Shown piece after piece: positions 2,327 through 22,903 of a stretch of 60,236 nt of DNA. The number at the start of each line of letters is the position of its first letter. The first letter of the stretch is position 1. The position numbers and the translations under genes were made by a program. The stretch is from a virus: positions 1 to 60,236 of IMG/VR virus record IMGVR_UViG_3300032224_001080; one strand, written 5' to 3'. Under the pieces are notes generated by a model. It worked only from the letters and a program-made list of their open reading frames with translations, was not told the origin of the DNA and made no database searches.

Positions 2327-3607
2327 ATGAGCGAAAAATCAATTTTAGAACAAGCGTTACTTCAAGTACAAAATCTTGAAGAAGCAGTAAAGCAAAATGC
2401 AAAAGGTATACTTGCTTCAACAATGAAGGAAGAACTTAAAGATTTGCTTAAAGAATCATTGGAAGAAGAGGAGAACGATGATGTTATGGAACAACCAGAA
2501 ACTGAAACTGATCCTGAAGGAGAGGAAGAAAAAGATGTAACAGCTGACGACGAAGAAACAGACGATGAGTCTGAAGATGACGTTGATACAGATGTTGATA
2601 CAGATACAGACCTCGATAATACAGATGACTCAACAGATGACGTTGATGCTGACGTAGATATGGATTTAGACGCAGAAACCGATATGGATACTGACGCTGA
2701 ATCTTTAGAAGACGAAGGTACTGACGACGAAGACGTTATGGATATGACAAATGCTTCAGATGATGAAGTACTAAAAGTATTCAAGGCTATGAAACCAGAA
2801 GATGGTATTGTAGTTAAAAAAGACGGTAACAATGTTGAATTTGGTGACGGTGAAGATGAATACATTATCAAATTAGATGGTGAAGATTCTGACATGAGTA
2901 CCGGAATGGACATGGGAGCTGACGTTGATTCTGATGTAGATTCTGACGTTGATATGGATGACATGGATACGGATACAGATGTGGACACAGATGTAGATAC
3001 AGATGTAGATGAAGATTGGAATGAAGAAGAAATGCCTTCTGAAAACAATGAAGAAACAATCTATGAAATCGAATTAGACGAAGAAGACGAGGTTGAAGAA
3101 CCTAAAAAAGTTGAAGCTACTGAAGCTGCACGTACAAAATCAAACCCTCATGGAAACAAGAACGGTATGAAAAGAGCTGGTTTACCAAGCAAAAAAATGT
3201 ATAAGGCAGGTTCATCTATCAACGAAGAAGTTGAAACATTGAAAAAACAAAACGCTGAATATAAAAAGGCATTAGTATTATTCAAGGATAAACTAAATGA
3301 AGTTGCGGTATTCAATGCAAACTTAGCTTACGCTACACGTTTGTTCACTGAACATTCAACTACAAAACAAGAGAAATTGAACATATTAAAGAGATTTGAT
3401 ACAGTTTCTACTATGAATGAAGCTAAGTCTTTATTCTCAACAATCAAAACTGAATTAGGTTCAAAAACTACGGTTACCGAATCAGTTGCGAAAAAAATCT
3501 CTAACACTCCATCAACATCTTCTTCTACAGAGGTATTATCTGAGTCAAAAGCTTATGAAAATCCTCAATTCAGTAGAATCAAAGAAATGATGAGAAAAAT
3601 AAAATAA
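2327..3607 (+). CDS. gp22: Prohead scaffolding protein, gp22-like, with long acidic repeats
   Basis: The 426-residue protein lies between the protease and the major capsid protein, as T4 gp22 does. The N-terminal 45 residues are helical. Residues about 45-150 and 195-265 are extremely acidic Asp/Thr/Val/Met repeats of the DVDTDVDTD type. Residues about 300-370 look like coiled coil (NEEVETLKKQNAEYKK, ending with LNILKRFDT), resembling the C-terminal part of gp22-like scaffolds. The last residues, NPQFSRIKEMMRKIK, share a short helix motif with the ends of three other proteins in this window. The acidic stretch is unusually long for T4 gp22 (about 270 residues) and accounts for much of the extra length. 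Role is inferred from position and composition. Confidence 0.8.
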   Translation: MSEKSILEQALLQVQNLEEAVKQNAKGILASTMKEELKDLLKESLEEEENDDVMEQPETETDPEGEEEKDVTADDEETDDESEDDVDTDVDTDTDLDNTDDSTDDVDADVDMDLDAETDMDTDAESLEDEGTDDEDVMDMTNASDDEVLKVFKAMKPEDGIVVKKDGNNVEFGDGEDEYIIKLDGEDSDMSTGMDMGADVDSDVDSDVDMDDMDTDTDVDTDVDTDVDEDWNEEEMPSENNEETIYEIELDEEDEVEEPKKVEATEAARTKSNPHGNKNGMKRAGLPSKKMYKAGSSINEEVETLKKQNAEYKKALVLFKDKLNEVAVFNANLAYATRLFTEHSTTKQEKLNILKRFDTVSTMNEAKSLFSTIKTELGSKTTVTESVAKKISNTPSTSSSTEVLSESKAYENPQFSRIKEMMRKIK

Positions 3608-3631
3608 AACAAAAACAAAATACAATTCAAA

Positions 3632-5398
3632 ATGGGAGCATTATTAGAATCAGGTATGGTTGGTAACATCGGTTTAAAACACCTTAGAGTTATCAAGGAA
3701 GATACCATCAAAAAATGGGACGAATTAGGCTTTTTAGAAGGTCTTGACGGTCACCAAAAAGATAACATCGCACAATTATATGAAAACCAAGCGTCTTATT
3801 TAATCAACGAAGCGGCAGTAGCTGATGCGTCTGGTTCATTCGAGACAGTAGTTTTCCCTATCATTCGTCGTGTGTTCTCTAAATTATTAGCTAACGACAT
3901 CGTGTCTGTACAAGCTATGAACTTACCAATTGGTAAATTATTCTTCTTTATTCCTAAAATTCAGGAAAGAGATGCAGACGGTCACTATTCACCATATGTT
4001 GGTGTTAATGGTCAAGCAACAGATAACCACAGTGCTTCTGCGGGCTATCCAGCGGGTAAAAGAAGTTTATACGATCGTTTCTACGAAGCTAGTGATGATT
4101 TAGATCAAGGTCTTTTTGATTATTCAAAAGGTTCTTTTTCTGTTGAATCATTGGCAGTTGCAGGTTTTGCAACTTTCTCTAACGGTGCAGTTACTGTTAG
4201 TGGTAGTGCAATTGCAACTGGTACAACAAAATCAAATATTATCTTAGCTTTAACTGGTTTCACATCAGCAGGTGCGGGTAAATTGAAAGGACCAGACGGT
4301 AATGAAATGGATTCTGAAGAATTCTTAGCTTCATTACAAGTGTTCTCTACAGATGCTAACTTATTAGCTTTCTTAGGTGCAACTACAAGTACTTCTTTAC
4401 CAATCAATATCGTTACTCAAAAGTACGGTAAAGGTATGGTTGAATATGGTGCTAAAACAACTAACGCAACACAAAATTATTATGATATTTGTGATGCTGA
4501 TAATGTTATTTATGTTCAAGTAGATTTACAAAAATACAGTGCAACTGCAGGTTTTGTTGATTACGTTGTTACAGGTTCAACATTGGATGATCAAGAATTC
4601 AACGCATCTTACCGTAAGTATGATACTTTGGAATTTGAAGAGCAAATCGGTGAAGTATCTTTTGATTTAGAGTCAGTAACAGTTTCTGTAACTGAAAGAA
4701 AATTAAGAGCTAGCTGGTCTCCAGAATTAGCACAAGATGTTAGTGCATTCCACAACATCGATGCTGAAGCTGAATTAACAGCTTTATTATCAGAGCAAAT
4801 CGCTGCTGAGGTTGACCGTGAAATCTTACGTGACTTACGTAAAGGTGCAGCATGGAAAGCTAAATGGGATTACAATGGATGGAAATACGGTGGTTCTGGA
4901 AACTCAACTTTACAAGGTTACACTCAAAAAGATTGGAACCAAACATTGGTGACTAAGATCAACCAAATTTCTGCTCAAATCCACAAAACTACGTTAAGAG
5001 GTGGTGCTAACTGGATCGTTGTTTCTTCAGAAGTTTCTGCAGTATTCGATGACTTAGAGTATTTCCACGTTTCTAACGCAGAACCAGAACAAGATCAATA
5101 TAACATGGGTATCGAGAAAATTGGTACAGTAGGTGGACGTTACCAAGTGTATCGTGATCCTTACTTCCCAGCAAACAAGATCTTGATTGGTCATAAAGGT
5201 AAGTCTTTGTTAGATGCAGGTTATGTATACGCACCATATGTGCCATTACAATTAACTCCTACAATGTACAATCCATTCAACATGACTCCAATCAAAGGTA
5301 TCATGACACGTTACGCAAAGAAAATGGTAAACAACCGTTACTTTGGTATCATCGATGTTCAAGGTATCCAAGTGTTTGGTTTAGATACATTAAGATAA
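3632..5398 (+). CDS. gp23: Major capsid protein, T4 gp23-like
   Basis: The 588-residue protein occupies the gp23 position. Its N-terminal region contains LINE-AAVADASG, with an I-x-E site after Glu60, close to the known gp23 processing position (after Glu65 in T4). I therefore predict a mature shell protein starting at Ala61. The block FPIIRRVFSKLLANDIVSVQAM and the C-terminal TPIKGIMTRYAKKMVNNRYFG are typical of gp23. A region of low similarity around residues 165-320 may be a surface insertion. It is followed by a strong terminator, consistent with the end of a highly expressed late unit. Base use is richer in G and C than the neighbours, as usual for capsid genes. Confidence 0.95.
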   Translation: MGALLESGMVGNIGLKHLRVIKEDTIKKWDELGFLEGLDGHQKDNIAQLYENQASYLINEAAVADASGSFETVVFPIIRRVFSKLLANDIVSVQAMNLPIGKLFFFIPKIQERDADGHYSPYVGVNGQATDNHSASAGYPAGKRSLYDRFYEASDDLDQGLFDYSKGSFSVESLAVAGFATFSNGAVTVSGSAIATGTTKSNIILALTGFTSAGAGKLKGPDGNEMDSEEFLASLQVFSTDANLLAFLGATTSTSLPINIVTQKYGKGMVEYGAKTTNATQNYYDICDADNVIYVQVDLQKYSATAGFVDYVVTGSTLDDQEFNASYRKYDTLEFEEQIGEVSFDLESVTVSVTERKLRASWSPELAQDVSAFHNIDAEAELTALLSEQIAAEVDREILRDLRKGAAWKAKWDYNGWKYGGSGNSTLQGYTQKDWNQTLVTKINQISAQIHKTTLRGGANWIVVSSEVSAVFDDLEYFHVSNAEPEQDQYNMGIEKIGTVGGRYQVYRDPYFPANKILIGHKGKSLLDAGYVYAPYVPLQLTPTMYNPFNMTPIKGIMTRYAKKMVNNRYFGIIDVQGIQVFGLDTLR

Positions 5399-5420
5399 TC
5401 TTAATAGGAATATCAAAAAA

Positions 5421-5445
5421 ACCCTCGAGAAATCGGGGGTTTTTT
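5421..5445 (+). terminator. Intrinsic terminator after the capsid gene
   Basis: ACCCTCGA and TCGGGGGT form an 8-bp stem with one U-G pair around a GAAA tetraloop, followed by five T. Confidence 0.9.
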
Positions 5446-5448
5446 ATT

Positions 5449-5480
5449 TTTGGTATATTCTAAATAAAGTTGTATATTTG
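5449..5480 (+). promoter_or_regulatory. Host-type promoter TTTG-N20-TATATTTG
   Basis: A full match to the Bacteroidota -33/-7 consensus. The -7 element ends 4 nt before the ATG at 5485, which predicts a leaderless or nearly leaderless mRNA. Confidence 0.75.
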
Positions 5481-5484
5481 TGAT

Positions 5485-5781
5485 ATGGAATACGAAAACC
5501 TACGATTAGACGTTTTAATCAAACTCATAGACGAGAGGGGAATTACGTGTAAAAATAAGAAAGATGTAATGATTGAACACCTCAAAATGGACGATGAGGG
5601 TAAATATATACGTGAAACTACCTACGAAAAGTGGGAAGGTCGTTTATTAGTGGGTATAGACCTCAAAAACGGACCTCATTTAATACAGATGGGTAAGTTA
5701 GTGGAAAAGAAAGAGGCGTTTTCTAAGGGTCTCTATGCGTCAGATAGAATATATTATATCGCTAGTCAAAAATTAATGTAA
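5485..5781 (+). CDS. Small protein with a SAP-like N-terminal motif
   Basis: The product has 98 residues from the ATG at 5485. A TTG at 5470 would extend it by five residues, but that TTG lies inside the spacer and -7 region of the promoter, so 5485 is preferred. Residues about 5-38 fit a SAP helix-extended loop-helix: two short helices joined by a turn with RGITCKNKKDVMIEHL, matching the usual G-x-x-x-x-x-K-x-x-x-x-x-x-L pattern. SAP motifs often bind DNA. The rest is not recognised. It is a single gene between the capsid terminator and a convergent late operon. The host-type promoter suggests early expression, so a DNA-binding early protein is a reasonable guess. Confidence 0.65.
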   Translation: MEYENLRLDVLIKLIDERGITCKNKKDVMIEHLKMDDEGKYIRETTYEKWEGRLLVGIDLKNGPHLIQMGKLVEKKEAFSKGLYASDRIYYIASQKLM

Positions 5782-6534
5782 TTACCAAGTTCTACAAGCC
5801 CAATAACGAGGTTTCCAACGAGGACCAGGGTTATCACAATTCATACGTGCTCTGAATGATTTGCGTCTTGCAGGGTTATTTTTCTTAATAACCATTCTTT
5901 TACCTTTAGCGGATTTACCACCAAAACCAAAGTTTACTTTAACGACTTTACCTTTATCATTCTTAACATATACTTTAGATTTCTTTACATCCCCTTGCAT
6001 GATTTTACCCAATTGAACTTTACGTCCTTGGTATTCAGCTTCGTTTAAAAGACCTAAATCATATTCATATTTAGTATTTTGTATTGAACCAAATTCATCC
6101 TCGTATATTAATACAGGAGTTTGTTCGTTATATTCGAAAAGTCTTTCGAATTGTTCTTCACTTATTTGTATAATTGTTCTTTTTTCCATATTTTCATTAT
6201 AATGTGTCATTGTTGGTTTATTTCCTTTACCTAATTTTGGATGTTTTTTTTCTGCTCTTCTTTTTTGAGAAGTCATCGCTTTCTTTTCTTTTTTATCATA
6301 TGAAGAAGCGACTTTTGGTGTTTCTTTAGATACTTTTTTTGAGGGTCTACATTTTGGGTATGATTTTCCATCAGCATCTTTTCTACCACATGGAGGATGT
6401 TTACCATTTACCTTCTTACTAACATCTACCCATTTTTCTTTAAACCATCTTCTAAGATCTTCCTTTAAAACTTCACCTGATTTAATGGATTCTTCTATAT
6501 ATTCTTTATCTTCCTTTGAAACAATAATTTTCAT
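5782..6534 (-). CDS. Two-domain basic protein: DUF5872-like N-terminus plus phage FRARxxC-type C-terminus
   Basis: The 250-residue protein is strongly basic. Residues about 25-70 read WFKEKWVDVSKK, PPCGR, YPKCRPSKK, like the DUF5872 cassette found in phages and large DNA viruses. A Lys-rich linker follows. The middle (about 117-165) contains a new ISEEQFERLFE motif. The C-terminal 70 residues (VYVKNDKGKVVKVNFG, RKSFRARMNCD, PRYWACRTW) match a cassette common in marine T4-like phage proteins, with conserved FRAR, Cys and YWxC. No enzymatic function is known to me. It is the last gene of a tight late operon with the dehydratase and flavoprotein. A virion or nucleic-acid-binding role is inferred from charge and context. 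Confidence 0.75.
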   Translation of the reverse strand: MKIIVSKEDKEYIEESIKSGEVLKEDLRRWFKEKWVDVSKKVNGKHPPCGRKDADGKSYPKCRPSKKVSKETPKVASSYDKKEKKAMTSQKRRAEKKHPKLGKGNKPTMTHYNENMEKRTIIQISEEQFERLFEYNEQTPVLIYEDEFGSIQNTKYEYDLGLLNEAEYQGRKVQLGKIMQGDVKKSKVYVKNDKGKVVKVNFGFGGKSAKGKRMVIKKNNPARRKSFRARMNCDNPGPRWKPRYWACRTW

Positions 6535-6535
6535 A

Positions 6536-6814
6536 TTATTTAATTTTATTTACCTCATTAACAAATTTATGACACTTATCAGATACCTTACCTTTATTGT
6601 GGTCTGTTATAGATAATTTTACATTATCGTAATGAACCGTCATATCAGGGTGATGATTTTGTTTATTAGCTATTTTCATAACATCATCCACAAATAACAT
6701 AACCTCTTTATAATCTTTAAAATAAAATGTTTTAATTAATTTACCGTTTGTTTCCACCCAATCATTACTATTCATAATTTTATTTTTTTGGTCTTCGGTT
6801 ATTATTATTTTCAT
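6536..6814 (-). CDS. Pterin-4a-carbinolamine dehydratase
   Basis: The 92-residue protein is a full-length PCD/DCoH family member (usual length 90-110). It shows the GKLIKTFYFKDYKEVMLFV block (24-42), IANKQNHHPDM with catalytic His54/His55 (48-58), and VHYDNVKLSITDH with His72. These are the three histidines of the active site. The enzyme dehydrates 4a-hydroxytetrahydropterin to recycle the cofactor of aromatic amino acid hydroxylases; animal homologues also act as transcription cofactors. No hydroxylase is visible in this window. It is separated by 1 nt from both neighbours in a late operon, so it is probably made late in infection. Its use to the phage is unknown. Confidence 0.9.
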   Translation of the reverse strand: MKIIITEDQKNKIMNSNDWVETNGKLIKTFYFKDYKEVMLFVDDVMKIANKQNHHPDMTVHYDNVKLSITDHNKGKVSDKCHKFVNEVNKIK

Positions 6815-6815
6815 A

Positions 6816-7577
6816 TTATAATTTAGTATCTTTTATAAATTTTTTGTGAGAATCTTTATATGATTTTTGTGTTTCATCATATACATCTTTGGTGTATTGC
6901 CAATTCCAATATAAGTCATTGTTTGTTTTAAAACCGTAAAATTCGTGAATTTTCTTTTGTAAATCATTTACATTAGAACCATTAAAGTTTTGACCTGTAC
7001 ATATGAAACCTGTCTCTATATCTTTAACAAGATTTGATTCTCCTAATGTCTCGTGTCTATTCTCAATCCAAGTTAATCTCTCAATTAGGTTTTGGTAAAA
7101 CATATTTGTTTGTCCCCATCTAATTGAACTGAAAAATACAACTGCATCAGATTCAAATAATTCTTTACTTATTTTCCAAAGTTCGTCCTTTGGGTTATTG
7201 ATACTAGCCCAACATCTATGGTGACCACTTGGGTTTTTATCATTATCTTTTAATTTAGCCTTTAAGACTCCACAACCATTACCGTCTTTTCTTGATACGT
7301 TACCCTCACAAGGAACTATATTTAGTTCAGAAACATCTAATAACGTTGATTTATCACCTAATTCTTGGTTAAGGTATATTGCAATCATTTTAGACTTTGG
7401 TATATCAATATCATTTTTGTCCCAATTATGTCTATTAGAACAACTTAATAGTAAAACTTTTTTCTTCTTTTTAAGAACAGCCAATGTTTTTTTTAAAGAT
7501 TTCCAAGCATCAGATTGTACCATCTCCTCAGAAATCATCATTTGTTTAATTCTTTGTATGTTCTCTTGTAAGTTCAT
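6816..7577 (-). CDS. Flavodoxin-fold NAD(P)H/FMN reductase-like protein with N-terminal tag
   Basis: The 253-residue protein has a flavodoxin-like Rossmann core. A first strand and P-loop-like VLLLSCSNRH is at 41-50, followed by LLDVSELNIVPCEGN. A cysteine cluster (CEGN, CGV, CWAS) resembles iron-sulfur flavoproteins. Then come ESDAVVFFSSIRWGQTNMFYQN, the usual FMN-contact loop of NADPH-dependent FMN reductases, and ETGFICTGQNFNGS. The first 18 residues (MNLQENIQRIKQMMISEE) are an added helix ending in I-S-E, the gp21 cleavage consensus, and resemble the scaffold C-terminus. The ATG directly abuts the upstream stop (TAGATG). It may be packaged in the virion; that is a hypothesis. The enzyme class is fairly safe, its substrate unknown. 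Confidence 0.8.
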   Translation of the reverse strand: MNLQENIQRIKQMMISEEMVQSDAWKSLKKTLAVLKKKKKVLLLSCSNRHNWDKNDIDIPKSKMIAIYLNQELGDKSTLLDVSELNIVPCEGNVSRKDGNGCGVLKAKLKDNDKNPSGHHRCWASINNPKDELWKISKELFESDAVVFFSSIRWGQTNMFYQNLIERLTWIENRHETLGESNLVKDIETGFICTGQNFNGSNVNDLQKKIHEFYGFKTNNDLYWNWQYTKDVYDETQKSYKDSHKKFIKDTKL

Positions 7578-8258
7578 CTATTTACATTTTCTCCAACCAC
7601 CACCTTTTGCTTTATAATCTTTTGCCGCGAAGCCATTTGCATAAGCTGAGGGGTAGACGTCAAATTTAGCTTTAGCTTTGGCTTTAGACGCCGCCCATTT
7701 TGCAGGATCTGTTGGACAGTTCTTACTTTCATCTATTTTCATAGCTTCATACATTTCCTTTTCTGACTCATTTTTAGGTTTCTTACCGGCTTTTTTCATA
7801 GCAATTGCAATGGCAGCTTGTTGTGGAAGATTTTTTGCTTCATTTACAGGTACACAGTTTGGTACTTTTTTACCATTTTTCATTTTACTACCAACTCGTT
7901 TATAACCTTCCCAACAACCTTCATCAAGTTGACCTTCCTCATTTAAACTGAATTGATCCATGTCCACAGAAACTGCTTGTTGGTCATTTTCATGTCCTTT
8001 AGTTTCATTCATCATAAAATCAAATACTTGATCTACGTTTTCTTTCGCGGATGAAATGTGATCGTCAGCCCAATCGTGGCCTTGTTCCAATAATTGATTT
8101 ACAACGTTTTTATCCAAATTCAACAACAATTCACATTGTCTTTTAATTTGTTCTAAATTACTGAAAAACATGTAGTTTCCACCATGTTCGGTGTTTTCCT
8201 TTATAATCTTAGCGATATATTTTCTAAGATCGTTTTCTTTTAGTTTAATTACTTTCAT
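7578..8258 (-). CDS. Multi-cassette phage protein (WADDHI, NCVP, YPSAYANG cassettes)
   Basis: The 226-residue protein is a chain of short cassettes seen in many phage proteins. Residues about 28-85 are helical, with IKRQCELLLNLD and GHDWADDHISSA. About 112-140 has CWEGYKRVGSKMKNGKK-PNCVP. About 143-160 has LPQQAAIAIAMKKAGKKP. The C-terminal 48 residues carry CPTDPAKWAASKAKAKAKFD and YPSAYANGFAAK, ending GGGWRKCK. None has a function I know. It is the first gene of the late operon, with a late octamer 4 nt before the ATG. The mix of basic cassettes suggests a nucleic-acid or protein-binding virion component, which is inferred. Confidence 0.75.
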   Translation of the reverse strand: MKVIKLKENDLRKYIAKIIKENTEHGGNYMFFSNLEQIKRQCELLLNLDKNVVNQLLEQGHDWADDHISSAKENVDQVFDFMMNETKGHENDQQAVSVDMDQFSLNEEGQLDEGCWEGYKRVGSKMKNGKKVPNCVPVNEAKNLPQQAAIAIAMKKAGKKPKNESEKEMYEAMKIDESKNCPTDPAKWAASKAKAKAKFDVYPSAYANGFAAKDYKAKGGGWRKCK

Positions 8259-8262
8259 AATA

Positions 8263-8270
8263 TATAAATA
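8263..8270 (-). promoter_or_regulatory. Late promoter octamer TATTTATA
   Basis: The octamer on the minus strand ends 4 nt before the ATG at 8258 and heads the four-gene operon 8258-5782. Confidence 0.6.
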
Positions 8271-8273
8271 GTT

Positions 8274-9668
8274 TTATTTTTCAGATGTTATCTCAAATTT
8301 AATTGATTCGTTATAATAAATTTCCTCAGTATGAGTCTTCGCTTTAATCTCTAAATGATATTCTCTTGGGATGTAGTTGTTTGTATCAAAATAAAACGAG
8401 TTTTCATTTGTTTTATCCATTAAAGTCCAATCATGAACATTTACGTCCACGGTTCCTTCCTTAATATATAATCTATAATAAACCTCATCAAATAAGACCG
8501 ATTTTGGAACATCTAAAGATTTAATTGTTACAACCACTTTTCTAATATCTCCTTGTTTAATTTTTTCACCTTGTTTAATTCCAAAGTATTGAATTTTATA
8601 ACGTTGTAATTCTGTTTGATTTTCACCAATGGTATATTGTGATGTAAATGGTTTAGGTACAAATTTTTGACTTATATTCGCAAGTTCGACACCGTCAATT
8701 GAAAGACCGGTCCAACGATCATAGAAAAAACGTTTTCCGTCACATAAATCACCGTCAATTCCTAATGTAACTTTATAAACTCCCTTTTTTACTTGGGTTA
8801 CAAATGGTAATGATATACCACCTAAACCTTCTACTATTGTTCCGGTTGAATCTAATATGTCAACACTTGGTATGTCATCTAAATCATAAAAATTGGTACC
8901 TTTAGTAACGTATAAATAAAGATTATTAAATACTCCAGCCGCAAAATTCTGTCTATTATCATCTATTCTATCATCAACAAACGTCTCAACGTATGGTTCA
9001 AAGAAGGTTTGTGTATATTTTGTAAAAAACGACACAGACTGCTCCGTCATTGGTGTTAAATCTTGAAATGGAACTGAAAACGCTAAACCAAATCCCTCAC
9101 AATCACCTAATGTATCATTGTTTAACATAAGATTAATTTCAGCGGTAATATCAACATCTATGTCTTCATTACCATTATCAAAATGAATAGTTTTTAAAAT
9201 TATTGGATTTTCCGCGTATATCCCTGAGGTGGCCCAACTATCTAATGTAGTTCTATCGTACCATGTTGATGGTCTTTGATCAAATGTTTTATTTCCATTT
9301 GATGTATCGGCATTAACATTAACATAGTCAAATCCAACTCCTTCATCCCAATATTCATCCAAACCAAATAAAATTAAATCAAACGAAGTTGCTCTATCTC
9401 TACCTGTAGACCTTAATTGACCTTTAAAACCTTCATCACCAAAAATACAGTTGGTTAAATGTAGTTTATGTGTAATTTTATCAAGATTTGCAAGTGACAA
9501 CTCACCTGAATTAAATTTATTAAGTAATTCAGTAAAATCTACTTTAAAAATAAATTTAGAAAACCCACCACCATAATATAACTCAGTTGTGGGGTTTTTA
9601 GCTGTATTAACCTGAGTATTCTTTATAATTGTATTATTCTTCTCAAAATAGGAACGTATATATGACAT
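8274..9668 (-). CDS. Virion-associated protein near the baseplate genes
   Basis: The 464-residue protein is beta-rich and not firmly recognised. The N-terminal part (YYGGGFSKFIFKVDFTELL, then KLHLTNCIFG) resembles the DNRLRE-type carbohydrate-binding or adhesin modules of secreted proteins. The C-terminal half consists of Ig-like strands (VSIKSLD-type segments, YHLEIKAKT). It has no signal peptide. It follows the gp5-like gene in the same direction, and its own late octamer lies 10 nt before the ATG. A baseplate-attached or surface-binding structural protein is the most likely role. Confidence 0.6.
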   Translation of the reverse strand: MSYIRSYFEKNNTIIKNTQVNTAKNPTTELYYGGGFSKFIFKVDFTELLNKFNSGELSLANLDKITHKLHLTNCIFGDEGFKGQLRSTGRDRATSFDLILFGLDEYWDEGVGFDYVNVNADTSNGNKTFDQRPSTWYDRTTLDSWATSGIYAENPIILKTIHFDNGNEDIDVDITAEINLMLNNDTLGDCEGFGLAFSVPFQDLTPMTEQSVSFFTKYTQTFFEPYVETFVDDRIDDNRQNFAAGVFNNLYLYVTKGTNFYDLDDIPSVDILDSTGTIVEGLGGISLPFVTQVKKGVYKVTLGIDGDLCDGKRFFYDRWTGLSIDGVELANISQKFVPKPFTSQYTIGENQTELQRYKIQYFGIKQGEKIKQGDIRKVVVTIKSLDVPKSVLFDEVYYRLYIKEGTVDVNVHDWTLMDKTNENSFYFDTNNYIPREYHLEIKAKTHTEEIYYNESIKFEITSEK

Positions 9669-9678
9669 CTCTTTTATT

Positions 9679-9686
9679 AATAAATA
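9679..9686 (-). promoter_or_regulatory. Late promoter octamer TATTTATT
   Basis: The octamer lies 10 nt before the ATG at 9668, on the minus strand. Confidence 0.55.
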
Positions 9687-16309: not shown

Positions 16310-16586
16310 CTTCGTCTTCTATTAAAATTTGATTTTTTATTAATGTGTTAAATGCAATTCTGAAAGATACTGATGTTCCTTCTTGTGCAAATTTTCCAAG
16401 TCCTTCGTCAACTTCGTCGATTTCACCTAAAACTCTATCCAAACACATTTTTATAATTTCGTATTTGAATATGTTTACTTCGGTTACTTCAGTTCCGTCT
16501 TCGTCTGGAATTGTTCCTCCTGTTCTACACTTCTCTGTGATTCCGTCAAGGTCAATGTAGTAGTTTTTTCCAAAGATTTCAACCAT
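16302..16586 (-). CDS. Hypothetical small acidic protein
   Basis: The 94-residue acidic protein contains YYIDLDGITEKC, VTEVNIFKYEIIKMCLDRVL and an acidic end LIEDEDE. I do not recognise the family. It overlaps the HAD-like gene by 103 nt in another frame and the GT-B gene by 8 nt. The start at 16586 (ATG GTT GAA) begins well inside the upstream gene, but shorter starts would remove the conserved-looking N-terminus. Position suggests a partner of the neighbouring glycosyltransferases. Confidence 0.6.
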   Translation of the reverse strand: MVEIFGKNYYIDLDGITEKCRTGGTIPDEDGTEVTEVNIFKYEIIKMCLDRVLGEIDEVDEGLGKFAQEGTSVSFRIAFNTLIKNQILIEDEDE

Positions 16587-17170
16587 GGTTCTTTTATTTC
16601 TATTAATTTAGATATTTCTTTACCATAAGTAAAGAATTGATTATAAGTGGTATTGAATTTAATTCCAGTTTTATTCTCAGGAATTAAGTCAATAATCTTT
16701 TTATTGTCGGTGATCCATACATCGCATTGTTTCCAATTATCTTCAATATCTTTTGTTTTAATAAATTTAATATTATTACCAAGATACCCATTTTTAGATA
16801 AAAAGAATAATGTTGCAGGTTTAGATTTACCTAATTCATCTAACCCAACTAATGTAAAATTATGTTCGGGGTTATCAAATAAAATTTTGTGTAAATCGGT
16901 AAAAGTAGTTGAATAACTTAATCCAGCATGACCAAATATTTCAATTGGATATTCAATGAATAAAAAGTTTTCAAACTCTTCTTGTGATTGAAATTTGTAA
17001 GAATTTAAAAGATTATCATTTTGAATAGGTTCAGTAACCGCATATTCAAATGTGTTTTCTTCTTCACCTTCAATTATAATGTCACTATTAAAATATGATT
17101 CATTATAATGATAATCAAACTTTTGAATTGTATTTCTTAAAACACCGTCGATACTAATATATATTTCCAT
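16484..17170 (-). CDS. HAD-like protein lacking the nucleophilic aspartate
   Basis: The product has 228 residues from the ATG at 17170. A TTG at 17185 would add five residues but lies in the promoter region. The N-terminus MEIYISIDGVLRN matches HAD motif I (D-x-D-G-V/T), except that the nucleophile is Ser6; the acid/base Asp8 is kept. LFFLSKNGYLGNN (Lys of motif III) and QCDVWITDNKKIID (motif IV-like) follow. It is probably a non-catalytic or altered HAD domain. The 3' end overlaps the next gene by 103 nt. A host-type promoter (TTTA-N19-TATATTTT) ends 4 nt before the ATG. Confidence 0.6.
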   Translation of the reverse strand: MEIYISIDGVLRNTIQKFDYHYNESYFNSDIIIEGEEENTFEYAVTEPIQNDNLLNSYKFQSQEEFENFLFIEYPIEIFGHAGLSYSTTFTDLHKILFDNPEHNFTLVGLDELGKSKPATLFFLSKNGYLGNNIKFIKTKDIEDNWKQCDVWITDNKKIIDLIPENKTGIKFNTTYNQFFTYGKEISKLIEIKEPWLKSLEKTTTLTLTESQRSVEQEEQFQTKTELK

Positions 17171-17174
17171 TGTA

Positions 17175-17205
17175 AAAATATACAACGAATTGAATTATAA
17201 GTAAA
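17175..17205 (-). promoter_or_regulatory. Possible host-type promoter TTTA-N19-TATATTTT
   Basis: A weaker match to the Bacteroidota consensus on the minus strand. It ends 4 nt before the ATG at 17170, the same gap as at 5485 and 34935. Confidence 0.4.
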
Positions 17206-17207
17206 TA

Positions 17208-17942
17208 CTAATCGTACCTATTCAATATTTCACCAATGATAGGGTTCCTTACAATATCTTGCATTCCAAATTCAAATAAACCGATTCCTTTTACATCTTG
17301 TAATCTCATTTTAGCATCATAAAGTCCCGATTTTGTTTTGTCGCGATATTTGTCTGATTGTTCAAGATCACCCGAAATAAAGAATTTAGAATTAAAACCA
17401 ATACGAGTTAATAATAATTTAATTTGAGATGGTGTTGCATTTTGAGCCTCTTCAAAAACAAGAATAGTATTGTCTACATTCCAACCTCTCATATAAGCAA
17501 GTGCCGCAACTTCAATATAACCTTGATCTTTTAATTCTTCACGAGCCTCTTTACCAATAATCTTATTTAAAAGGTAATATGATGGATATATGTATGGATC
17601 TAATTTCTCTTCTAAACCACCTGGAAGTGACCCTAATTTCTCTTCAGCTTCAACTGCGGGTCTAACTATGATAATCTTTTCATACTTGTTAGAATCGTCG
17701 TATAATAGGTCTACTGCACGTTTCATTGCTATGTAGGACTTACCTACACCTGCAGGACCGAAACATAATGTAATTTGATTTTCTCCAAGAATGTTCCAAT
17801 AGGTTTCTTGGTTTTTGGTTAGGAACTTTTCCTTAGGACGTTTGATGATTTGTCTAATCCTATCTTTATGTGATATCTTCTTTTCTTCTACTAATACGGG
17901 TGTTGGTTGGTGAGATGTTTTGGTTCTTGTTTTATACGCCAA
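17208..17942 (-). CDS. phoH: PhoH-like ATPase
   Basis: The 244-residue protein is a PhoH-family P-loop ATPase. Walker A is GPAGVGKS (62-69), a VRPAVEAEEKLGSLPGGLEEKLDPY block follows, and Walker B is ILVFEEAQN with the typical PhoH FEEAQN form. SGDLEQSDK (sensor region) comes next. PhoH proteins are common in T4-like phages, and bacterial relatives have RNA helicase or nuclease partners. The start codon is TTG at 17940-17942, the only plausible start before the conserved core; no ATG lies nearby in frame. A late octamer lies 32 nt upstream and a partial one (TATTTAC) 1 nt upstream. Confidence 0.9.
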   Translation of the reverse strand: MAYKTRTKTSHQPTPVLVEEKKISHKDRIRQIIKRPKEKFLTKNQETYWNILGENQITLCFGPAGVGKSYIAMKRAVDLLYDDSNKYEKIIIVRPAVEAEEKLGSLPGGLEEKLDPYIYPSYYLLNKIIGKEAREELKDQGYIEVAALAYMRGWNVDNTILVFEEAQNATPSQIKLLLTRIGFNSKFFISGDLEQSDKYRDKTKSGLYDAKMRLQDVKGIGLFEFGMQDIVRNPIIGEILNRYD

Positions 17943-17974
17943 AGTAAATAGTTTTAAGGGTTCCGTTTATTGTT

Positions 17975-17982
17975 AATAAATA
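17975..17982 (-). promoter_or_regulatory. Late promoter octamer TATTTATT
   Basis: The octamer lies 32 nt before the phoH TTG start, on the minus strand. Confidence 0.45.
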
Positions 17983-17985
17983 TCA

Positions 17986-18612
17986 TCATTTTCCTGTAGA
18001 TCCAAATCCACCACTACCTCTTTCAGTATCAGATAATTCAGGAACCTCAGTCATATATATTGTAGGATAAGGTAATATGATAATCTGTGCACCTCTTTCA
18101 CCCACTTTATATTTAATTGAATCCAAACCTTGGGTTTTCTTAAATGTTGCTTGTAATTCTCCTCTGTACCCACTATCAATAACACCAATACAATTTGATA
18201 ATATTAAATCTTGATTTCTAACTGATGAACGAGGAAATACTAACCCGACATAACCTTTAGGAATTTCCATTGCAATACCAAAACCATACGATACACTAAA
18301 TGATGTATTTTCAATTTCTTTTGTGATTGTTAAATCCATACCAGCATCACCAACTTTTGAGTATGATGGGATAATCGCATTTGAGTCTAACTTTTTTACT
18401 TTAACTAAAACACCACCACCCGTCATTGTTGGTTGGGTGTTAATTATATTTTGTTCAGTAACAAGAGGAGTTCCTAAATCTTCTTGTAATTTATTTAATA
18501 AACCATTTAATTCAGTAACAAAATTTAAATCAATTTCATCATCATCCGAACCTATTGTTTTTTCAAAATTTTCTAATTGTTTAAGATAATTTTCAACATC
18601 TTCTTTTTCCAT
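17986..18612 (-). CDS. dut: dUTP pyrophosphatase (dUTPase) with N-terminal extension
   Basis: The 208-residue protein has all five trimeric-dUTPase motifs: DAGMDL (89-94), PRSSV (127-131), GVIDSGYRGEL (143-153), GERGAQIIIL (171-180) and the C-terminal RGSGGFGSTG (198-207). It hydrolyses dUTP to dUMP and pyrophosphate, keeping uracil out of phage DNA and supplying dTMP synthesis. About 65 N-terminal residues, acidic and helical (LKQLENFEKTIGSDDDE), precede the domain and are not part of the standard enzyme of about 150 residues; they could mediate an interaction. It lies 1 nt after an upstream small gene. Confidence 0.95.
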   Translation of the reverse strand: MEKEDVENYLKQLENFEKTIGSDDDEIDLNFVTELNGLLNKLQEDLGTPLVTEQNIINTQPTMTGGGVLVKVKKLDSNAIIPSYSKVGDAGMDLTITKEIENTSFSVSYGFGIAMEIPKGYVGLVFPRSSVRNQDLILSNCIGVIDSGYRGELQATFKKTQGLDSIKYKVGERGAQIIILPYPTIYMTEVPELSDTERGSGGFGSTGK

Positions 18613-18613
18613 A

Positions 18614-18829
18614 CTATTTGTTTTTCTTTTCTTCCAACCATTTATCTAATGCCTTAATTCTTTGTTTAAGGTTATCATCTTGTGGACGTAAACATATCTC
18701 CACAAATAAATCGGTAATTCTTACCAATTCCTCTAAAGTAACTGAAACACCAACTGATGTTACATATTCCAATGCCATTTTACTTTGCGATTGACGCATA
18801 ATTTGTATTTCACGACTATAGAATTCCAT
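18614..18829 (-). CDS. Hypothetical small helical protein
   Basis: The 71-residue protein is not recognised. Its middle (VTLEELVRITDLFVEICLRPQ) looks like a compact helix pair, and it ends in a Lys-rich tail. It is co-directional with dut, separated by 1 nt, so the two are co-translated. Confidence 0.65.
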   Translation of the reverse strand: MEFYSREIQIMRQSQSKMALEYVTSVGVSVTLEELVRITDLFVEICLRPQDDNLKQRIKALDKWLEEKKNK

Positions 18830-18848
18830 ATCAGTTGGTGTTTAATTG

Positions 18849-19085
18849 TTATTTACTTTTGTAATACTCGGGTGTGTTCTTTTCGTCAATGACACACTCA
18901 ATTGGGAATTTAGCGACACTTAAACTTTCACTACCTCTAATGTCACCTTCACGATATCTTGCGGCAACAATTGTTGCTTCTTCTACCGATTCAGCTTGAA
19001 TTACGTATTTTACTTTTTTAACACGAGGGTTCCCTTCTCTGTCCATTTGTTCGGTTTCATAACCGATTGTAACTTGATAATACAT
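18849..19085 (-). CDS. Small protein resembling DUF4494
   Basis: The 78-residue protein reads YYQVTIGYETEQM, KKVKYVIQAESVEEA, FPIECVIDEK. This resembles the DUF4494 proteins of Bacteroidota and their phages, which begin with a W/Y-x-x-x-V strand and carry an A-E-S/T-x-x-E-A-E helix. The function of that family is unknown to me. It lies between a glycosyltransferase and the 71-residue gene, all on the minus strand. The family call is moderate and unsearched. Confidence 0.55.
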   Translation of the reverse strand: MYYQVTIGYETEQMDREGNPRVKKVKYVIQAESVEEATIVAARYREGDIRGSESLSVAKFPIECVIDEKNTPEYYKSK

Positions 19086-19092
19086 GTTGTTT

Positions 19093-20313
19093 TTATTTTA
19101 TAATTGATTTAAAAAATTCTACTCTATCTTTACATACTTTTTTTAATGAATATGTATCTTTTACTGTTTCATATAAACGATTACCTAAGTCTTCAATCAT
19201 ATTAGGATTTTCAACTAAACGTTTCATATGTTTTGCCCAATCTTTATGGTTCTTTTTAGAACCTACTAATAATGCGTTTCCTTTATTATTAAACTTACCT
19301 TCATCAACCGCAGAAATTAAATCAATTGTAAATGGATCCACATCACTTGCAATGATTGCCTTTTTAAAGAAACCAGCTTCAATAACTTTAAGTTGTGATT
19401 TATTTGCGTTGAATACTGAATCAACTAAAGGTGCTAATGATACATCAAATGTATTATAGTTTGTTGCGTATGTATTAATATCTTTAGTCCATCTTCTTCT
19501 ATATGGTTCATCTATGTCGTTATAATCTCCTTGAGTAAAGGTTCCTAAATAATTTTTATATTCAGAACTTAATACTTTAAAATCATCTGTGAAAAATCCT
19601 TCATATTTGTACCATACTGTTTCTGTTGGTTGTATAGGTCTTTGTTGTTGTTTACCTTCTTGATCAATAACAGTTACACTACCTCTTGTATCAAACCCAC
19701 ATAAAACGAATTGTACTTTATCTTTAAATAAATTATATGTGGAAGAAATTCCATTTGACATTAACTCTAAATCGTGTAAATGTGATGACCCACCTAACCA
19801 ACCAAATCTAACTTTATCTGATTGAACAGGTTTATTTTGAAACTGTGGTTCATCTTCATTTACCGCATTTGGAAAAACAACAACATTACTAACTTTTAAT
19901 TTATCTTTAATCGTTTTTGCAAATATTGAAGTTGTGGTGCTAACATAATCAACGGCCTTTAACATGTCAATTTTCATTTCACCAACTTTATTCATTTTAA
20001 TTGCCATATACATTGGATGCCTTTGATCAACAAACCATAGATCATCAATATCCATTATAGTAATAATACCTTTGGATTTTAACCAATTAATTCTTTTAAT
20101 GTTATGTTCGTGATTTGTTTGATGGATAAAAGTATGAAAAACTACAATATCGTAGTTTAAAAAATAATCATCTCTATCTTCCGCATTATACGAAATATCT
20201 ACGTGAATATCCTCTGAATGTTTATCTGAAATGAATACAAATGGATCCATCATTCTAAACTTACCCACACCATGCTTATCCGATGGAATTGCTAAAATTC
20301 TAATTTTTGACAT
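19093..20313 (-). CDS. Glycosyltransferase, GT-B type
   Basis: The 406-residue protein begins KIRILAIPSDKHGVGKFRMMDPF, with the glycine-rich first loop of GT-B enzymes. ITIMDIDDLWF follows near 95-105, then VVVFPNAVNE (about 145-155), RFGWLGGSSHLHDL (donor-domain first strand, about 169-182), VQFVLCGFD, and VSLAPLVDSVFNANKSQLKVIEAGFFKKAIIASD. The last segment is the usual nucleotide-sugar-binding region with an E-A-G in the place of the GT4 E-x-x-A-x-G. It is the third glycosyltransferase in this stretch. A host-type promoter 20 nt upstream of the ATG suggests expression separate from late genes. Confidence 0.8.
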   Translation of the reverse strand: MSKIRILAIPSDKHGVGKFRMMDPFVFISDKHSEDIHVDISYNAEDRDDYFLNYDIVVFHTFIHQTNHEHNIKRINWLKSKGIITIMDIDDLWFVDQRHPMYMAIKMNKVGEMKIDMLKAVDYVSTTTSIFAKTIKDKLKVSNVVVFPNAVNEDEPQFQNKPVQSDKVRFGWLGGSSHLHDLELMSNGISSTYNLFKDKVQFVLCGFDTRGSVTVIDQEGKQQQRPIQPTETVWYKYEGFFTDDFKVLSSEYKNYLGTFTQGDYNDIDEPYRRRWTKDINTYATNYNTFDVSLAPLVDSVFNANKSQLKVIEAGFFKKAIIASDVDPFTIDLISAVDEGKFNNKGNALLVGSKKNHKDWAKHMKRLVENPNMIEDLGNRLYETVKDTYSLKKVCKDRVEFFKSIIK

Positions 20314-20333
20314 TTAAATTAACTTATATGTCT

Positions 20334-20364
20334 AAAATATAACTAAAAAATTTGAGAAAACAAA
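20334..20364 (-). promoter_or_regulatory. Host-type promoter TTTG-N19-TATATTTT
   Basis: On the minus strand, TTTG (20361-20364) and TATATTTT (20334-20341) are separated by 19 nt. The element ends 20 nt before the ATG at 20313. Confidence 0.5.
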
Positions 20365-20365
20365 A

Positions 20366-20935
20366 TTACTTGGCTTTATTTACTCCTGTAATTTTACCCT
20401 TGAAAATAGAGTCTCCCACCTTCAATACTAAATTTTCATTAATAGATGATGTTGTGGATGCTGTAAGGATTTGATTTAATTTTTCATCCATTACTTTACG
20501 AACTGTATTTTCAATTAGAACCGCGATTGCATTCATATCAATATTGTTATTAACAATAGTTTGTTTTGTTTGTGCAGATGGTCTTGTTGCAACACCTTCT
20601 TGTTCCATTAAACGTTTTGCACCTTTAACAAAATCCATATCTAAAGTATCATTTAAAGAAATTTGTTGAATTGGGTTTTCCATCATTGCTTTTTTAATAG
20701 CGTCGGGTAACTTTGAATTTTGAATTTTATCAATATCCATATTACCACCTACAGGTCTTGTATTAGGTTGTTGAGGTGTTTGCATTTCCATTAATTCTGA
20801 AGGATCAGATCTTAACATTTCACTATTAACATGACCTCTTTCATAATTTCCACCATCAACTTTATTCATTACTTTCTTTGCTTGTACTAACTTTTTCATT
20901 AAATCGTTAGATGATATTGATCCTTGTTGTGCCAT
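20366..20935 (-). CDS. Hypothetical virion-type protein
   Basis: The 189-residue protein is Gln/Asn/Met-rich with predicted helices at 10-25 and 125-155 (MNAIAVLIENTVRKVMDEKL) and a C-terminal beta hairpin (LVLKVGDSIFKGKITGVNKAK). No family is recognised, though such an end occurs in T4-like structural proteins. A late octamer 3 nt before the ATG places it with late genes. Confidence 0.6.
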   Translation of the reverse strand: MAQQGSISSNDLMKKLVQAKKVMNKVDGGNYERGHVNSEMLRSDPSELMEMQTPQQPNTRPVGGNMDIDKIQNSKLPDAIKKAMMENPIQQISLNDTLDMDFVKGAKRLMEQEGVATRPSAQTKQTIVNNNIDMNAIAVLIENTVRKVMDEKLNQILTASTTSSINENLVLKVGDSIFKGKITGVNKAK

Positions 20936-20938
20936 GTT

Positions 20939-20946
20939 AATAAATA
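20939..20946 (-). promoter_or_regulatory. Late promoter octamer TATTTATT
   Basis: The octamer on the minus strand ends 3 nt before the ATG at 20935. Confidence 0.55.
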
Positions 20947-20968
20947 TTTTATATTATAATAAACTATT

Positions 20969-21718
20969 TTAAGAAAACATTAAACGTTTAATGTTTTTAA
21001 TACTTTCTTGTAAATTTTTATTTTCCTCATCTTCCTCAGGATTTGCAACTGGTTTTTCTATTTGTTTTGGTTGAGGTAATTCTTGTGTTTTTGGTTCCGT
21101 TGTTTTAGGTTCTGTTGGTGTAGGTTCAGGTTTTGTTACAACTTTCTCAGGTTTAGTTTGAGTTTTTGGTTGTGGTAATTCCGTTGTTTTTGGTTCCTCG
21201 GGTGTAGTCGTTGTTGTCGGTTCAACACTTGGAGTTGGTTGAGTTGTTGCAGTTGCCGAAGGGACACTTGGTTTTGGTTTAACAATCCTTGGTTTTTTAA
21301 CCTCAGGTTTATTTGTCCAATCTGTAGTTACATATGTAACACTCATAGATCTATCATCACCTTCTTTATAATCGGGTCTTTTCTGATCAAATGTTTCATC
21401 ACTAACTCTTAGATCGCTCATTCTACTAACCATAAAAGTTCTCCAACCTGTTTTATCAAATCCTTTTTTGGATACTGAAGGTGGTTGGACATATGCACGA
21501 ATAACTAAATTACCTCTTTTACTTAACCCTAAAGCCACGGCTTCAGCGTCAATTCTTTTACCAGGTTTAACACTATCTTTCGCAGGTTTTCTTGGACCTG
21601 TATAAAAAAAAGAAATCTTATTCCTATTTTTGATTGAGTCAACTATAGGTTTAGTTTTTGATGTCTTTAAAATATTTTGTTCTTCAAGTATTTTGAAGAT
21701 TGTATTTGTAAAACTCAT
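20969..21718 (-). CDS. WYL-like domain protein with Pro/Thr linker and C-terminal tag
   Basis: In this 249-residue protein, residues about 25-120 resemble a WYL-type ligand-binding SH3-like fold: KISFFYTGPR, KRIDAEAVALGLSKRGNLVIRAYVQP, GWRTFMVSRMSDLRV. WYL domains usually sense nucleic acid or nucleotides in bacterial regulators. Here there is no helix-turn-helix. A Pro/Thr/Glu/Lys linker fills about 145-230. The last 15 residues (NLQESIKNIKRLMFS) repeat the helix motif seen at the scaffold C-terminus. The start shares 1 nt with the upstream stop. The tag and late-gene neighbours make a virion protein possible; this is an inference. Confidence 0.6.
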   Translation of the reverse strand: MSFTNTIFKILEEQNILKTSKTKPIVDSIKNRNKISFFYTGPRKPAKDSVKPGKRIDAEAVALGLSKRGNLVIRAYVQPPSVSKKGFDKTGWRTFMVSRMSDLRVSDETFDQKRPDYKEGDDRSMSVTYVTTDWTNKPEVKKPRIVKPKPSVPSATATTQPTPSVEPTTTTTPEEPKTTELPQPKTQTKPEKVVTKPEPTPTEPKTTEPKTQELPQPKQIEKPVANPEEDEENKNLQESIKNIKRLMFS

Positions 21719-22410
21719 TACGTTGTTGGATGTCTATTATATTCTTTTTTAGAGTTATAACTATTCTTACCGGTATTTTCTGTTCTTTTTAATATATCGG
21801 TTGTAGACCCTATAGTTCCGTTTTCATCTTTTTGTCCTTTACCATTTTCATCTCCGTCAGAAATTGCATCAGGATTTGTACTATTATATTGATTCTTTTT
21901 ATTAAACTTATTTTTAACTAAATTTTCAGTTCTTTTTAATACATCAGTTTTAGTACCTACTTGACCTGTTTCGCCTTTTTGTCCTTTACCAAAATCATCA
22001 CCATTAGAAATTGCATTAGGATTGTTAACACCATATTGATTATGTGATCCGTATGTATTTTTACCCATTAATAAATTTCTATTTGAGATATCTACAGACG
22101 TTCCAATTGCAACATTATCTTCTTTTTGACCTCTACCTTTAGTATCGCCGTCCGCCAATGCATTTGGATTTGTTAAACTATATTGGTTATTTTCATTGTA
22201 AATATTCCTACCCGTATTTGTTATTCTATTCTGTATATCTGTAGAAGAACCAACGGTACCATAATCACCTCTTTGTCCTTTTCCCTTATCATCACCATTA
22301 GATAACGCATCAACGTTTTGACTGTTGTATAAGTTTTTTTCACCATAAGAATTTCTTGTTAGAGATTCTTTTCTAAATTGTTCTGATATTTGATCTAATT
22401 TTGTTGCCAT
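21718..22410 (-). CDS. Repeat protein with four 49-residue units
   Basis: After a 19-residue lead, the 230-residue protein consists of four tandem units of 49 residues plus a partial fifth. Each unit has the form N-x-Y-x3-N-x-x-A-x-x-x-G-D-x-x-G-x-G-Q, then G-T/S-x3-D-x-x-x-R and a final K/R-N. The protein is hydrophilic with almost no Cys. The invariant NGDxxGxGQ loop could bind metal or adopt a repeated turn. I know no function. Start and stop are tightly spaced with neighbours in a virion-type operon. Confidence 0.7.
   Translation of the reverse strand: MATKLDQISEQFRKESLTRNSYGEKNLYNSQNVDALSNGDDKGKGQRGDYGTVGSSTDIQNRITNTGRNIYNENNQYSLTNPNALADGDTKGRGQKEDNVAIGTSVDISNRNLLMGKNTYGSHNQYGVNNPNAISNGDDFGKGQKGETGQVGTKTDVLKRTENLVKNKFNKKNQYNSTNPDAISDGDENGKGQKDENGTIGSTTDILKRTENTGKNSYNSKKEYNRHPTT
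21721..22353 (-). repeat. Tandem coding repeat, period 147 nt
   Basis: Four units encode 49 residues each plus a partial unit, diverged at DNA level but with conserved GD-x-x-GKGQ and TD-x-x-x-R cores. Confidence 0.8.
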
Positions 22411-22411
22411 A

Positions 22412-22903
22412 TTATAACATTAATTTTTTTATTCTTTTAACTTGTTCAAATAAACCAGTTAATTTTATTGACGACACTGAATTTTTTTCTGAATTAGAAT
22501 TAAATTTAAATGAAGGTAACCAACTTGATTTTTTTGTATGTTTTTTTAAGAAACTATTTTTTCTTTCTCCCGTTGTACTTGAAATATCATCAGCTTGTTT
22601 TCTACCTTCTTTTCTATTTTGAATTAAATCTCTCTCACCCTGAAGATATTGTTTTGACCATGTATCCATTAGATCACCACCAGCCAAGTCATACCTAACT
22701 CTATCAGCAACTTTATCCATACCTTGTATGTCATGAATAATACGTTTAAGTTGACCATATGTTACTTTTTTATCAGTTAATAGTTTTTTTGCTCTCATTA
22801 CCCCATGCACATTTTGACCATTAAGACCGGTAACCGTATGGTTGATCTTGTCTAATATGTTTTGGGGTAAATCAAAATCCCTATGTTTTAACTCTTTATT
22901 CAT
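22412..22903 (-). CDS. Hypothetical protein with C-terminal IKxLM tag
   Basis: The 163-residue basic protein is not recognised. A helical core (about 10-95) includes GVMRAKKLLTDKKVTYGQLKRI and LMDTWSKQYLQGERDL. A Ser/Lys-rich linker follows, and the last residues LFEQVKRIKKLML resemble the ends of the WYL-like protein and the scaffold. Its start overlaps the upstream gene by 8 nt. Possibly a virion-internal protein. Confidence 0.6.
   Translation of the reverse strand: MNKELKHRDFDLPQNILDKINHTVTGLNGQNVHGVMRAKKLLTDKKVTYGQLKRIIHDIQGMDKVADRVRYDLAGGDLMDTWSKQYLQGERDLIQNRKEGRKQADDISSTTGERKNSFLKKHTKKSSWLPSFKFNSNSEKNSVSSIKLTGLFEQVKRIKKLML

Follow-up and report, generated by a model that had tools for sequence, protein, structure and literature searches.

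Candidate capsid-targeting tags with a gp21-type cleavage motif at the termini of unrelated proteins in environmental jumbo phages

Introduction

Some phages load proteins into the head by means of short terminal peptides, one case being the capsid-targeting sequence (CTS) of bacteriophage T4. The T4 internal proteins IPI, IPII and IPIII begin with a short N-terminal peptide common to otherwise unrelated mature proteins, with an [LI]xE motif of the gp21 type at its end. In PMC9026906, the length of the CTS is given as 10–19 residues and the cleavage motif of the gp21 protease as L/I-X-E, and the CTS is proposed to let T4-like phages package various proteins; the same paper states that C-terminal peptides of Alt and of gp21 are cut by gp21. 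For the phiKZ-like phage SPN3US, PMC5694885 describes propeptides on the inner head proteins gp45, gp47, gp53 and gp54, which are cut by a gp21-related protease, and 15 N-terminal residues that gp53 and gp54 have in common. Here, we analyze the IMG/VR virus record IMGVR_UViG_3300032224_001080, positions 1 to 60,236 (the whole stretch of 60,236 nucleotides is called the window), and report short terminal helices, termed tags, which recur on unrelated proteins of this virus and of related jumbo phages.

The window resembles T4 in that the genes for gp21, the gp22-position protein and gp23 stand in the same order, and the C-terminal propeptides of T4 Alt and gp21 are similar to the processing that we propose for three window proteins, namely the scaffold, a WYL-like protein and the protein encoded at 22412–22903. 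Unlike the T4 CTS, however, the tags fall into several classes per genome, stand at C-termini as well, where the position of the site is mirrored, resemble the scaffold C-terminus in the case of class A (in the lineage of the window), and are flagged on up to 43 of 435 genes per genome, 24 of which belong to the less certain class C. Unlike Alt and gp21, the C-terminal peptides found here resemble N-terminal tags of other proteins. Compared with SPN3US, for which PMC5694885 gives several propeptides of more than 100 residues (20 in gp45) and A-x-E sites, the tags are approximately 15–25 residues long, use [LI]xE and stand on a wide range of bodies. By eye, only a helix-like start and IAE are alike between the tags and the T4 CTS peptides, which are too short for homology tests. 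The best reading of these sequences is that the kind of element is already known from T4 and that the tags are candidate members of it, which would work like a CTS. The tag sequences, their multiple classes, their use at both ends and their breadth were not found in the titles or abstract beginnings of the part of the open-licence literature that was searched.

Results

Tag Classes in Related Jumbo Phages

The survey covered the window together with 214 loci, 215 sequences in total, and then six large relatives of 282–336 kb. Unrelated proteins of these phages bear terminal helices of five or more classes, and the consensus sequences are MNLQENIxRIKxMM (class A), MKKIIRLTESDLxxIVKRVI (class B; MKKIIRLTESDL in the form used for scanning DNA), MKIIITESxYxxL (class C), MKELIKKxLREE (class D), MKKLIITEEEKNRILxLH (class E) and MKKxDxxILEEIxRYNSINxYI (class F). 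Open reading frames (ORFs) were called mechanically as the longest, non-overlapping frames with ATG, GTG or TTG starts, and families are single-linkage BLAST clusters. Proteins below 60 aa were dropped from the ORF pool and those below 50 aa from the DNA scans (119 to 113 for class A, 141 to 139 for class B).

Within the pool of 4,866 ORFs, class A was present on 30 families and class B on 26. An independent DNA-pattern scan of IMG/VR gave 117 stretches, 113 proteins and 42 body families for class A, and at least 120 stretches, at least 139 proteins and at least 110 body families for class B; 21 and 11 of the matches, respectively, lie in proteins cut by the end of a stretch. Regular expressions for classes A–E flagged 43/435 genes in genome G004, 34/438 in G002, 33/447 in G007, 27/456 in G003, 26/409 in G006 and 7/446 in G001. 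Class C, the least certain, accounts for 101 of these 170 genes. In nine body families, at least two tag classes are represented, depending on the phage. Among them are the pterin dehydratases, with homologs tagged by class A, C or D; another of the nine, family 44, is a large heterogeneous cluster of 136 members. Taken together with the coupling to a cleavage motif described below, these comparisons support well the view that a tag is a transferable terminal element, carried with a gp21-type motif by unrelated proteins, enzymes among them, in phages of the gp21/gp23 type.

Transfer could also be a matter of DNA rather than of peptide, recombination equipping new genes with copies of an efficient translation start, without any targeting role of the encoded residues. 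The same codon is used in 64/86 pairs of shared tag residues in G004, 23/36 in G002 and 32/45 in G007, which is somewhat above the expectation from codon usage (approx. 0.4–0.8 per residue in G004 and G007), and an excess of same-codon pairs within a genome suggests recent copying. On the other hand, 22/86, 13/36 and 13/45 pairs in these genomes show synonymous differences, and the same kind of helix is found at C-termini, where a translation start is irrelevant. We consider a pure DNA cassette very improbable; the codon pattern fits copying of the tag with subsequent selection on the peptide.

Isolated phages were searched by tblastn using class A and B peptides, without any match, and using the class E peptide, with a single meaningless match (E 9), but queries this short may escape detection by the method. 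The isolated, culturable relative Flavobacterium phage immuto (NC_055915) carries a class of its own, FxLKKFLxENKLTxNSxxLxE or near it, on at least three proteins (103806, 117631, 118632; loci L267 and L584). When the immuto tag was used as a query, only immuto's own four records were matched, at four places each.

Coupling of the Tags to [LI]xE

Since the DNA patterns cover the helix only, [LI]xE is scored independently of them, which makes this the stronger test. Scored by family majority, the motif follows the tag in 39/42 class A families and, among the matches listed, in 108/110 class B families. The controls gave 15.0% and 16.5% of 1,566 untagged families and 13.0% (505/3,886) of interior 12-mers. 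Using a single representative per family, the values were 36/42 for class A and, among the matches listed, again 108/110 for class B. The Glu is mostly residue 18 or 19 in class A (33/36) and residue 22 in class B (99/108 among the matches listed). In the 4,866-ORF pool, a looser form, hydrophobic-x-E, was found in 29/30 class A, 26/26 class B and 9/11 class E families, compared with 18–20% of the 1,566 untagged families (18.5% as the class A control). Letter shuffles of the class A stretches of this pool reached the looser form in at most 69% in 200 trials, and for both classes A and B shuffles fall short of the observed rate. Class D was scored beyond its own site, and its 1/17 carries no information.

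At C-termini the arrangement is mirrored, with [LI]xE on the body side before the helix. Among scaffold relatives with the helix, 64/65 have [LI]xE, KxYExPQ and helix in this order, and in the only miss LAE is present while YE differs. The motif directly precedes the helix in 27/29 relatives of the WYL-like protein and 26/30 of the 22412–22903 protein, and in the four misses of the latter LFE or IFE stands shortly before the part that was scored; these counts omit 5/34 and 1/31 relatives, respectively, which have no C-terminal helix. Inspecting all seven misses of the three families by eye, six have [LI]xE nearby and one has VQE.

Two further families show the motif in a constant place. LxE-A precedes the AEYxGR domain in 60/60 distinct proteins of the pool, despite very different N-termini upstream. 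In 20 flavoproteins, picked from among the homologs, M14 and E17 are invariant and I or L stands two places before that Glu in 20/20, even though the first residues are swapped among them (MNLQENIQRIKQMM, MIKLADLVNEMM, MISLTEIVREIM). In the window protein the motif corresponds to residues 15–17 (7527–7535). For 27/27 cellular homologs of the flavoprotein (archaeal, candidate-phylum and Sulfurovum-type genomes according to the record titles), no tag was found in the in-frame upstream sequence shown.

Amphipathic helices are, as is generally known, used by many targeting systems, and the tags might accordingly be addressed to the tail, a membrane or an intracellular phage compartment, [LI]xE being a mere helix end. 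A motif rate in class C that does not exceed letter shuffles speaks for such a reading. However, [LI]xE is retained while the flavoprotein helix is swapped, lies on the body side of N- and C-terminal tags alike and precedes the AEYxGR body at a constant position, independent of the sequence further upstream; moreover, the rates in classes A and B are out of reach of letter shuffles. A destination other than the head appears unlikely to us.

Tagged Proteins of the Window

An initial annotation of the window had pointed to a motif shared by the scaffold C-terminus and the ends of three otherwise unrelated proteins, proposing a scaffold-mimicking tag that loads cargo into the prohead. All four ends are present where it had placed them, and every one is terminal (Table 1). 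The regular expression [ILVMF].[RKN][IVL][KR].[LMI]M matches four times in the 55 window ORFs (19,256 aa), each time no more than 20 residues from a terminus; after shuffling of the residues in each protein, the mean was 0.105 matches overall and 0.022 terminal ones, and four terminal matches were reached in 0/1000 shuffles. As this expression was fitted to the four ends themselves, a position-specific scoring matrix (PSSM) is the fairer test. The class A PSSM has 12 positions and was derived from N-terminal tags of 30 families, excluding the scaffold, WYL-like and 22412–22903 sequences. Over 18,651 window positions, the flavoprotein, whose family belongs to the training set, came first, followed by the scaffold C-terminus (17.8), the 22412–22903 protein (14.5) and the WYL-like protein (13.4), with the next match at 5.3. 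The placement of the motif at termini is thus confirmed by four of four matches of the expression and by ranks 2–4 of an independent matrix for the three C-terminal ends.

Table 1. Tags, putative cleavage sites and head genes in the window.
Feature	Position	Strand	Evidence
Class A tag MNLQENIQRIKQMM-ISE, N-terminus of flavodoxin-fold protein 6816–7577	7527..7577	-	PSSM; relatives
Scaffold C-terminus, LSE (3536–3544) followed by SKAYENPQFSRIKEMMRKIK	3536..3604	+	PSSM rank 2; relatives
C-terminal tag of WYL-like protein 20969–21718, LQE (21005–21013) followed by SIKNIKRLMFS	20972..21013	-	Relatives
C-terminal tag of protein 22412–22903, LFE (22445–22453) followed by QVKRIKKLML	22415..22453	-	Relatives
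Class B tag MKVIKLKENDLRKYIAKIIKE, protein 7578–8258	8196..8258	-	Class B PSSM
Class C N-terminus MKIIITEDQKNKIMNS, pterin-4a-carbinolamine dehydratase 6536–6814	6767..6814	-	PF01329 E 1.3e-16
LNE directly before AEYQGRKV domain, DUF5872-containing protein 5782–6534	6040..6048	-	Relatives
Class F N-terminus MLEKKLLEEVKRFNAINKYSKKMIME, protein 56787–57482	56787..56864	+	Pattern search
Prohead protease (gp21 / Peptidase_S77)	1554..2237	+	PF03420 E 1.5e-21; phrog_207 E 1.1e-39
Acidic scaffold, gp22 position, between protease and capsid protein	2327..3607	+	Gene order
gp23-type major capsid protein	3632–5398	+	PF07068 E 1.8e-72
Putative gp23 processing site INE-A	3803..3811	+	LINE-[AS] in printed relatives covering the site

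The I-S-E behind the flavoprotein motif, which had been remarked upon as a gp21 consensus, proved to be one instance of a more general coupling. What had escaped notice is an [LI]xE ahead of each of the three C-terminal helices (LSE, LQE, LFE), as well as the other tag classes on the neighboring proteins at 5782–8258. Among the latter, the 7578–8258 protein is the top match of the class B PSSM in the window (13.5; next −2.8), and its homologs have other N-termini. Two weaker look-alikes had been named in addition. The one at 56787 belongs to a separate class, F, for which six sequences including that of the window were found by a pattern that does not extend over the site, all of them with IxE-Q. 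The other, SKIKFLME at 57466, was rejected as a tag: it is the first helix of the protein's own domain, presumably a ferritin-like one, and the motif is not shared by six other listed homologs.

Regarding the protein labels, "WYL-like" agrees with the first 17 Foldseek matches (best E 8.1e-4), all to the WYL proteins BrxR, PafBC and DriD, and "flavoprotein" is weakly suggested by matches to quinone/FMN reductases (best E 4.9e-4; mean pLDDT of the model 69.5). In ten chosen sequences of the WYL-like family, L236, E238, I240, I243, K244, L246 and M247 are invariant (10/10), and the Pro-rich linker before the tag varies in length. The AlphaFold2 model of the window protein (mean pLDDT 58.6) has a disordered linker of low confidence and a terminal helix, residues 227–248, of modest confidence. 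The N-terminus of this protein (residues 1–13, 21680–21718) likewise consists of a helix and [IL]EE, with F8, E12 and E13 invariant in 10/10 chosen sequences; the protein thus looks tag-like at both ends, as reported for T4 Alt. By eye, its N-terminus (ILEE, VIEE) and that of the protein 22896–23630 (VIEE) resemble class D.

Elsewhere in the window, long TPTPTP stretches occur at 23663–25725, 27593–30427 and 57853–58590, and many GTSGTSG repeats at 25725–27548; these are probably surface or fiber proteins.

Head Module and Scaffold Mimicry

The order protease, scaffold and capsid protein in the window is that of T4 genes 21-22-23, and the S77 protease is presumed to be the processing enzyme of the tags. 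Its own C-terminus, DSRMSKLMGNLDTFLSK (2184–2234), has a faint tag likeness by eye. Neither Pfam nor PHROG scans gave a match for the scaffold. The putative processing site of the capsid protein, LINE-[AS] in the printed relatives covering it, is of the same type as the sites beside the tags. Deposited phages matched with 2,502 records, all below 60% identity, with Flavobacterium phages immuto near the top. For a wider view, 30 tag-bearing records were hand-picked from listed records above 100 kb, mostly omitting those met in earlier homolog searches. An S77 protease is encoded in 24/30, and the identical 24 encode gp23; the other six have neither gene, which fits a head module missing from fragments. 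One record, G040 (behind locus L360), contains two S77 proteases and two gp23 genes, at 31–35 kb and 233–238 kb, pointing to either a duplicated head module or a chimeric contig.

Applied to the scaffold C-terminus, the class A profile gives rank 2 in the window and also in G001. The likeness of tag and scaffold is clear in the lineage of the window and weak in the other five genomes. The hypothesis of the initial annotation is partly supported, namely as far as a transferable terminal tag with a gp21-type motif is concerned, and its scaffold-mimicking part may hold for this lineage. No weight was given to hydrophobic spacing in the class A helix, since it is already demanded by the regular expression used to collect tags. 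A corresponding role of class B as a mimic of the N-terminal scaffold helix was considered and rejected, the best scores of the scaffold being negative. In T4, IPIII starts with MKTYQEFIAEA and the scaffold with MLKEQLIAEA; this likeness, spotted post hoc, may be a parallel case.

Bodies Carrying the Tags

In a Pfam comparison of tagged families of classes A, B, D and E, each through a single representative, most bodies scanned belong to no family. Recognizable bodies include a class B-tagged thioredoxin (E 1.1e-21), a class A-tagged P-loop kinase-like protein and a class E-tagged L,D-transpeptidase-like protein; a match of a class A body to dual-specificity phosphatases remained below its cut-off. 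An Acb1-like (anti-CBASS) body in L030:11924-12487 scored 28.1 bits (cut-off 27; E 1.9e-6) and carries a class A tag with an INE site (MELNEQITKIKTMMGINE-N). T4 gene product 57B, which we take to be Acb1, aligns with this protein mainly over 15 residues around the PHxT motif. An ORF at G002:29610-30173 has a start nearly identical to that of the Acb1-like protein.

The bodies bear on a further explanation, namely that tags bring building or scaffolding parts into the prohead core, which are cut up and gone before DNA packaging, without any delivery to a host. The scaffold itself ends in a class A helix preceded by [LI]xE, most of the scanned bodies belong to no Pfam family, and T4 core proteins, gp22 and gp67 among them, are degraded and for the most part lost according to PMC9026906. 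Nevertheless, some bodies are, or resemble, recognizable enzymes (thioredoxin, pterin dehydratase, P-loop kinase-like, Acb1-like, L,D-transpeptidase-like), which suits cargo better than scaffold filler, and we judge the discarding of all tagged proteins to be improbable.

Two observations were made near tagged genes or in tag-bearing genomes. Three tandem ORFs at G007:126623-131123, by eye cytosine methyltransferase-like (start LFDGISCGQIAL), adjoin tagged genes. The same genome (IMGVR_UViG_3300042562_001598) has tandem short ORFs of 53–95 aa at approx. 134.0–137.4, 148.2–150.0 and 155.6–159.0 kb (loci L258 and L259), which have the form MKTKxxLGKSVxxKVxxSVxxSVxxSV and lie on both strands, 23 of them passing a strict filter. 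None were found in four other genomes, and G004 has one doubtful long ORF of this type.

Discussion

In our view, the tags are probably capsid-targeting sequences for head cargo, which would be cleaved by the S77 protease, the cargo being delivered to the next host. Once synthesized, a protein would dock onto the growing core of the prohead through its short amphipathic end helix, N- or C-terminal, in class A probably by the same contact as the scaffold's own C-terminal helix. Following closure of the shell, the gp21-type S77 protease would cleave behind the Glu of the [LI]xE that separates tag from body; the released body would be kept in the head, enter the next host together with the ejected DNA and be able to act there ahead of any phage gene expression. 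Docking, cleavage, packaging and injection of the tagged proteins are inferred steps, and so is their location in the virion. Going further, the tags may form a modular cargo system in which several interchangeable tags are placed at either end, at least one of them copied from the scaffold docking helix, and all are removed by the head protease, so that tens of proteins per phage, including enzymes and the Acb1-like protein, are pre-loaded; to us the case for this wider proposal is evenly balanced.

Several points weigh against capsid targeting as the explanation. The class A profile ranks the scaffold C-terminus at only 23, 48, 55, 56 and 67 of approx. 82,000–96,000 positions in the five other genomes, and by class B score the scaffold ranks 13/55 proteins in the window, 100/435 in G004 and 91/446 in G001. 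In class C, the motif directly follows the tag in 32/69 families (mean 0.44), and its coupling to the site is not shown because this rate is inside the range of its own shuffles (mean 0.38, max 0.51); [LI]xE is missing behind the class C tag of the window's pterin dehydratase. The expression used for class B in the 4,866-ORF pool already demands the hydrophobic residue at P3, and only the Glu is independent in its 26/26 families. One of these 26 families (G001:316209), having an IscA-like ordinary start, looks like a false match. The joint presence of S77 protease and gp23 was scored in tag-bearing records and shows co-occurrence rather than specificity. Finally, virion proteomics of any tag-bearing phage was not found in the titles or abstract beginnings of the open-licence literature searched.

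If the tags do target head cargo, sequence alone would tell which of the unknown proteins of environmental phages ride in the virion, and some 150 body families, mostly without known function, would become candidate injected proteins. The Acb1-like protein would then offer a testable route to ready-made counter-defense, disarming host immunity at injection and before transcription. Short tags which remove themselves would also be usable for loading proteins into phage heads. For the assembly of phage T4, such a system would bear on the question of how capsid-targeting peptides recognize the core.

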